DNA from: a virus
Reading direction: 5' to 3' (one strand)
Virus record (IMG/VR): IMGVR_UViG_3300034062_000414
Span: 1-27,470 of that record
DNA: 27,470 bases
Position 1 is the stretch's first letter; each line of letters begins with the position of its first letter. This document shows positions 3,611 through 4,198 of the stretch, in pieces. The position numbers and the translations under genes are program-made. The notes below the pieces were generated by a model. The model was not told the DNA's origin. It worked only from the letters and a program-made list of their open reading frames with translations, and searched no databases.

Positions 3611-4198
3611 ATGACCACACTTGCAGGATTTCAGGGAAACGGCTTCGCCATAATTGGCGCAGATTCGCGCGCAACAGACGATTCTGGAGCTATGTTTATC
3701 CTCAGCAATCCGAAGGTTATTTGGGACGACCAGCGCGATTACTTGTTTGCAATCACTGGCGCAACAAGAGGCGGAAATCTGATCCAACAGGGGTGGATTC
3801 CTCCTCAGCCTCCAGAGTTCCTTGACATTTCTAAACTTGACCAATTTATGACGCAAGTATTTATCCCTCAGCTTCGCGACCATTTTATTGACTCCGGCTT
3901 TGACGCAAAATGGGAAGGCGAATCTGCTTGGAACGATTCTGCTTTTCTAGTTGCGGTGCAGGGAGTTATTTATCCCGTCCACAATGACTATGGGTGGGAC
4001 AGAGATCGCCGAGGCGTTTATGTATTTGGAAGCGGTGGCGACATAACCCTTGGCTCAATGCTTGCGCAAGGTATAAAAGAATGCGCAGACGATCCAAAGC
4101 GAGCGAAACAAATAATCAAAAAGGCAATCGAACACGCGTGCGAATACAACGCCTATTGCTCACCGCCTGTGGTTATTGAGATTCAGTATTTCGATTAG
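3611..4198 (+). CDS. Proteasome-beta/HslV-like Ntn-hydrolase (putative threonine peptidase), 195 aa
   Basis: The N-terminus MTTLAGFQGNGFAIIGADSR matches the start of mature 20S proteasome beta subunits and HslV. Removing Met would expose Thr2 as the nucleophile; counting it as Thr1, Asp18 falls at the Asp17 position and Lys35 one residue from Lys33. FGSGGD (139-144) corresponds to the GSG turn carrying Ser129. An Asp166 equivalent is not obvious. There is no propeptide, as in HslV. The length suits a bare beta-type subunit (HslV about 175 aa), with an extra segment around 61-135. No ATPase partner (HslU, Mpa or ClpX-like) lies nearby. It is the only plus-strand gene, with its own ribosome site. 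Its substrate and assembly state are unknown. Confidence 0.8.
   Translation: MTTLAGFQGNGFAIIGADSRATDDSGAMFILSNPKVIWDDQRDYLFAITGATRGGNLIQQGWIPPQPPEFLDISKLDQFMTQVFIPQLRDHFIDSGFDAKWEGESAWNDSAFLVAVQGVIYPVHNDYGWDRDRRGVYVFGSGGDITLGSMLAQGIKECADDPKRAKQIIKKAIEHACEYNAYCSPPVVIEIQYFD

Follow-up and report, generated by a model that had tools for sequence, protein, structure and literature searches.

A proteasome-like N-terminal threonine peptidase gene in a virus of actinobacteria and its variant active-site clade

The peptidase gene and its upstream region

We analysed the whole of the IMG/VR virus record IMGVR_UViG_3300034062_000414 (27,470 nt, hereafter the window), in which a single gene at 3611-4198 encodes a proteasome-like peptidase of 195 amino acids (the window protein, P0001 in our set). 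The features of this gene are listed below; conservation counts, here and later, refer to 92 distinct relatives of the window protein.

3611..4198, plus strand: gene for the 195-residue proteasome-like (group I, phrog_1040) N-terminal threonine peptidase; from sequence, PHROG, model and profile
3611..3616, plus strand: Met1-Thr2, with Thr2 the predicted catalytic Thr1 once Met is gone; Thr in 91/92, Ser in 1/92
3662..3664, plus strand: Asp18 codon, equivalent of catalytic Asp17; 92/92
3713..3715, plus strand: Lys35 codon, equivalent of catalytic Lys33; 92/92
3758..3760, plus strand: Gly50 codon, aligned with the oxyanion-hole Gly47; 87/92
4028..4039, plus strand: Gly-Ser-Gly-Gly, residues 140-143, with Ser141 the Ser129 equivalent; from sequence and alignment
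4148..4159, plus strand: Asn180-Ala-Tyr-Cys183, clade-specific replacement of the Asp166-x-x-Ser/Thr169 motif; from alignments and tree
3597..3602, plus strand: GAGAGG, purine-rich, likely ribosome-binding site 8 bases 5′ of the ATG; direct reading
3591..3604, plus strand: TGGCGTGAGAGGAT, upstream element, possibly an operator or promoter; from comparison of syntenic phages

A preliminary description of this DNA had reported a gene starting Met-Thr-Thr, with DSRAT at residues 18-22, Lys35 and GSGG at 140-143. Our analysis found these motifs (M1-T2-T3, D18-S19-R20-A21-T22, K35 and G140-S141-G142-G143) exactly as described, at 3611-4198 on the plus strand. From the upstream stop to the ATG the frame contains just four codons, GAG GAT AGG GCT. 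This leaves no room for a propeptide or an extended N-terminus, in line with the earlier statement that no propeptide is needed. The gene had also been described as the lone plus-strand gene with its own ribosome site, and this holds: the two flanking genes (2909-3517 and 4353-5387) and the genes recognised as head, lysis and DNA genes in the window all lie on the opposite strand, the remaining plus-strand open reading frames overlap minus-strand genes, and GAGAGG, the likely ribosome-binding site, precedes the ATG.

The ratio of nonsynonymous to synonymous substitution rates (dN/dS) was 0.013 and 0.034 between the window gene and its two nearest variants, and 0.01-0.14 across close pairs of relatives. 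These low values, together with the 92 distinct homologues, indicate that the gene is real and under strongly purifying selection.

The element TGGCGTGAGAGGAT is present as one exact copy in the whole window, and it is preserved 5′ of the gene in syntenic phages although the remaining intergenic DNA diverges. It is possibly an operator or promoter element. A search for sigma-70-like promoters around the peptidase gene gave no more than was expected by chance.

Family and predicted fold

The window protein matched the PHROGs family phrog_1040, ‘peptidase HslV family’, with an E value of 3.4e-17 over residues 1-191. Single-sequence comparison of the window protein with HslV gave no significant match. 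A family profile of 28 relatives searched against the PDB matched HslV (1.1e-9), BPH (1.2e-8, full length) and also 20S beta-5 subunits, and 20 of 28 relatives matched the Pfam proteasome family PF00227 at E ≤ 1, the best at 2.8e-9.

The AlphaFold model, made from an alignment of 28 sequences, had a mean predicted local distance difference test (pLDDT) score of 90.1 and a predicted template modelling (pTM) score of 0.87. It consists of a beta-sandwich with helices at residues 52-59, 73-94, 143-152 and 162-179, which is the sandwich of the N-terminal nucleophile (Ntn) hydrolases and proteasomes. The best folds found in the PDB by Foldseek were BPH (E 6e-12), HslV and 20S beta, all with a probability of 1.00, and identity in the structural alignments to solved beta subunits was 13-21%. 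The best viral fold match was a predicted phage protein named ‘HslV’ (TM score 0.91). The phrog_1040 match, the fold and the conserved catalytic triad thus all support the stand-alone proteasome-beta/HslV-like peptidase proposed in the preliminary description, and the window protein is almost certainly a proteasome-like Ntn hydrolase.

Active-site residues and the Asn/Cys clade

Asp18 and Lys35 were found without exception in the 92 relatives, and residue 2 was Thr in all but the one with Ser, so the conservation on which the earlier proposal depended is present. Gly140 and Gly142 are invariant. We rejected the idea that Ala47 disrupts the oxyanion hole, as the HslV alignment puts Gly50 at the Gly47 position.

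Active 20S beta subunits typically have a second set of residues, Ser129, Asp166 and Ser169, which is not a requirement of the superfamily. The Asp166 and Ser169 equivalents were located via alignment to BPH (‘EFDKSS’, PDB 5ovu) and to a proteasome beta subunit (‘nDPYSG’, PDB 9f9p). In the window protein Ser129 is represented by Ser141, and Asn180 and Cys183 stand in place of Asp166 and Ser169, a substitution that had been overlooked before. Asp together with Thr or Ser occupies the two positions in 74 of the 92 relatives, Asn together with Cys, always jointly, in 13 including the window protein, and five further relatives also deviate there. The 13 members with Asn and Cys are separated from the others by a branch with 99% support in the SH-like approximate likelihood ratio test (SH-aLRT).

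A previous study showed that D166N alone drastically lowers the activity of yeast beta-5, the active site of which is still inhibitor-reactive (PMC4792962). The Asn/Cys clade is predicted to be weaker or altered rather than dead, because the main triad is retained, and it probably turns over its substrate more slowly or more selectively than a true proteasome does. This natural Asp166Asn/Ser169Cys clade offers a ready variant of a well-studied catalytic network.

Comparison with known systems

Fuchs, Alva and Lupas (2021) have described proteasome homologues of two kinds in phages, PPH (proteasome homologue of phages and hosts) and AAH, for which they gave neither an AAA+ partner nor a suggestive context or function (PMC8665760). 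The preliminary description knew of no function for such short phage proteins. That no function is known still stands, but the family had already been published (PMC8665760).

The window protein shares with AAH the group I features (no propeptide, a compact subunit) and the lack of an AAA+ partner; this resemblance is indirect. AAH, like some of the relatives here, has ties to phages of Firmicutes and Bacteroidetes. However, an AAH-encoding actinobacterial phage was not found in that work (PMC8665760), whereas most of our related contigs have whiB. PPH has about 140 residues and lacks helix H2, whereas the window protein has 195 residues, and in its model two helices (52-59 and 73-94) precede the middle strands. 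It is therefore not a PPH, being too long and having a helix that PPH lacks.

With other phrog_1040 proteins the window protein has in common a stand-alone phage gene, the Met-Thr start, the Asp, the Lys and the GSG, but, like the rest of its clade, it differs by Asn and Cys at the equivalents of Asp166 and Ser/Thr169. The beta-proteobacterial proteasome homologue BPH (PDB 5ovs, 5ovu) is its best match in fold and a full-length profile match, and the Asp-x-x-Ser motif of 5ovu aligns with the family; BPH, however, is a cellular protein with about 18% identity, and 5ovu retains the Asp166 equivalent. HslV (ClpQ) is alike in fold, Thr1, Asp17, Lys33 and GSGG but has a dedicated ATPase, HslU, and none was found with the window family. 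In contrast to 20S beta subunits (PF00227), the window protein has no propeptide before Thr1.

Named actinophages (DSL-LC01, the Arthrobacter phages Pitbull and Hum25, and the Microbacterium phage Pumpernickel) carry members of the same family annotated as ‘ATP-dependent protease subunit’ or ‘protease’. Their genome contexts differ from that of the window gene, and identity to the window protein is 28-34% for DSL-LC01, Pitbull and Hum25. HslV without HslU has also been noted in the Salmonella jumbo phage pSal-SNUABM-04 (PMC7823757), which belongs to another phage group and is likened here by description only.

Virus, host and distribution

Contig G001 shares 12,195 bases with the window at 100% identity and encodes WhiB just beyond the window (L001:1474-1818, E 2.6e-14). 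WhiB genes were found in 35 of the 50 larger contigs with a peptidase relative, G001 among them, and also in the related Actinomycetia phage DSL-LC01. whiB is a marker of actinobacterial phages in the literature (PMC6802176). By this marker the tailed virus of the window is one of actinobacteria, and the related contigs are mostly actinophages. Its portal and terminase matches are remote, no relative at the nucleotide level was found among named phages, and no tRNA was found in the window.

In IMG/VR a pattern scan confirmed a peptidase relative in at least 560 stretches. No relative appeared in a first scan of bacterial genomes, and when 84,980 species genomes of bacteria and archaea were scanned almost identically to IMG/VR they yielded one contig; these collection scans detect fairly close relatives only and are uninformative on the cellular AAH proteins of the literature. 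The one contig (L068, JAURLY010000091.1), from a metagenome-assembled genome of Gammaproteobacteria, was rejected as a cellular case. It is probably a misbinned actinophage contig, since whiB (L068:7278-7706) lies in it beside other phage-like genes. The branch of the window protein appears essentially viral within the reach of these scans.

What is new here is the abundance of the gene in actinobacterial phages, its recurrent neighbours and the Asn/Cys clade, the kind of protein itself being already known. The many IMG/VR stretches, the neighbourhood that recurs in some of these phages and the presence of the gene in cultured Arthrobacter and Microbacterium phages make the role testable by gene deletion in laboratory phages.

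Search for an ATPase partner

A match to AAA_2 (HslU/Clp) above the cut-off was found in none of the 50 related viral contigs, most of which are fragments, and in none of eight named phage records. Arthrobacter phage Pitbull and Geobacillus virus E3, whose records are titled complete, had no AAA domain of any kind above the cut-off. The earlier claim that no ATPase partner is encoded near the gene is thus upheld for proteins of the HslU/Clp type in these contigs and named phages. The matches to PF00004 in the related contigs were chiefly proteins of 340-360 amino acids, which appear to resemble clamp loaders. As for an alpha-subunit partner, the 27-kb record, which is a fragment, contained nothing that PF00227 matched at E ≤ 10.

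Five of the 50 contigs encode an AAA+ protein of 542-564 amino acids about 10 kb from the peptidase gene. We rejected it as a general partner, as it is absent from the other 45. The 542-residue example at L149:303-1931 is probably CDC48/Ycf46-like.

Proposed mechanism and alternatives

We lean towards the view that the window protein is a peptidase that works with no unfoldase dedicated to it. Host methionine aminopeptidase is expected to cleave Met1 before Thr; its removal would expose Thr2 as the nucleophile, with Lys35 and Asp18 to activate it. The subunits would self-assemble, as those of BPH and HslV do, into a small ring or barrel, which would cleave short or unfolded polypeptides with no phage-encoded unfoldase. 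The target would be a host or early phage protein, not the capsid.

Several points weigh against this view. Activity, oligomer and target are all predicted. The window protein scored 12 bits against PF00227, under the gathering cut-off of 22.4 bits. A partner is conceivable in the five contigs with the large AAA+ protein. Finally, the effect of D166N in yeast beta-5 and the clade-wide Cys at 169 suggest by analogy that members of the Asn/Cys clade may be poor peptidases. Phage proteasome-like proteins have been described since 2021, though we found none with a demonstrated role in the literature.

Instead of working alone, the peptidase could be a ring, the sole component supplied by the phage, that docks on an AAA+ unfoldase of the host (ClpX, ClpC, HslU-like or Mpa/ARC-type) to redirect it. 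Relatives of HslV normally need an unfoldase, and one from the host would have to serve because these phages have none of the HslU/Clp type of their own. We regard this as possible but doubtful. About equally doubtful is the idea that the Asn/Cys clade is a distinct enzyme class, in which altered protonation of the Thr amino group would lead to slow, selective cleavage of a particular host target or to acyl transfer on it, and whose self-contained gene would move between unrelated actinophages.

It is rather unlikely that the product is a catalytically weak or inactive decoy subunit, which would bind, block or remodel a proteasome-like or HslV-like complex of the host. Such a role would agree with the Asn and Cys fixed at the Asp166 and Ser169 positions in the clade of the window protein, as D166N cripples yeast beta-5. 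However, Thr2, Asp18 and Lys35, which a decoy does not need, are kept throughout the clade under strong purifying selection, and the 13-21% identity to solved beta subunits makes mixed rings unlikely.

A part in virion assembly, as a protease of head maturation or of internal proteins, is very unlikely. In phages of the L004 type the gene follows the terminase and portal genes and precedes those of a small protein and a 1929-residue protein, a common site for a head protease. But the window gene is solitary, inverted and away from the head genes, and in most other actinophages that we saw the gene has small accessory genes around it, and often whiB close by. The window phage also has, close to its portal gene, a candidate head maturation protease of its own, a 703-residue protein of the head module (20066-22177, minus strand) that matches phrog_3270 (head maturation protease, 1.1e-5) and, weakly, Peptidase_S78. 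Because of this S78-like candidate, the capsid-processing option of the preliminary description is unlikely for this phage. The same 703-residue protein also matches models of major head protein and DUF5872, and is possibly a fusion of a head protease with other modules.

Use of the Ntn chemistry beyond proteolysis, in ligation or transfer of the connectase type or in hydrolysis of small-molecule amides, seems the most improbable, for although connectase, a protein ligase, is proteasome-like (PMC8665760) and the changed Asp166 and Ser169 equivalents could alter the fate of the acyl-enzyme, the model does not contain the connectase-type insertion of two helices among the early strands and we found no specific positive evidence.

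Genomic context

Within the clade of the window protein the gene was found in three arrangements. It is solitary and inverted between minus-strand genes in the window, L003/L021, L060 and L062; it comes right after the terminase and portal genes in L004, L024, L026, L064 and L065 (the last contig begins within the portal gene); and it lies amid other genes, some with weak virion-protein matches, in L022 and L027. With at least three unrelated contexts in one clade, it behaves as a movable, self-contained gene. Among locus pairs with 40-60% peptidase identity, 1258 of 1631 had no common neighbour within six genes, and the commonest shared neighbour was the gene of a small SH3-like protein.

In other actinophages this SH3-like protein (about 110 amino acids, a weak assignment) is encoded on the same strand, one to a few genes upstream of the peptidase. 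In DSL-LC01 and in the majority of these 22-23 loci, the distance is one or two genes. Examples are as follows.

L005:7634-7975, strand of the peptidase gene: SH3-like gene, weak SH3-like match
L029:7674-7994, strand of the peptidase gene: SH3-like gene, weak SH3-like match

A second protein of about 81 amino acids (81-86) is encoded directly upstream of the peptidase in 17 loci (L108, L109, L117, L132 and others), either about 30 bases away or overlapping its start by 1-4 bases. It had no PHROG match, and one member compared with Pfam had no match either. Neither this gene nor the SH3-like gene was found near the window gene. whiB lies directly downstream of the peptidase gene in six loci and in DSL-LC01.

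In L021, a close relative of the window virus, added genes (8563-10259), one of them 3′-phosphoadenosine-5′-phosphosulfate (PAPS)-reductase-like, adjoin the peptidase gene; this insertion shows that the adjacent spot varies between close phages. Elsewhere in the window, a C5 cytosine methyltransferase (1080-2454, minus strand) is in two pieces of 255 and 221 amino acids in different, overlapping frames, and it is also split in L021; this could be a frameshift, a split enzyme or decay. The structural region of the window encodes two very glycine-rich predicted proteins (8997-9794 and 25291-26127, minus strand), which are probably tail-tip or adhesin-like.
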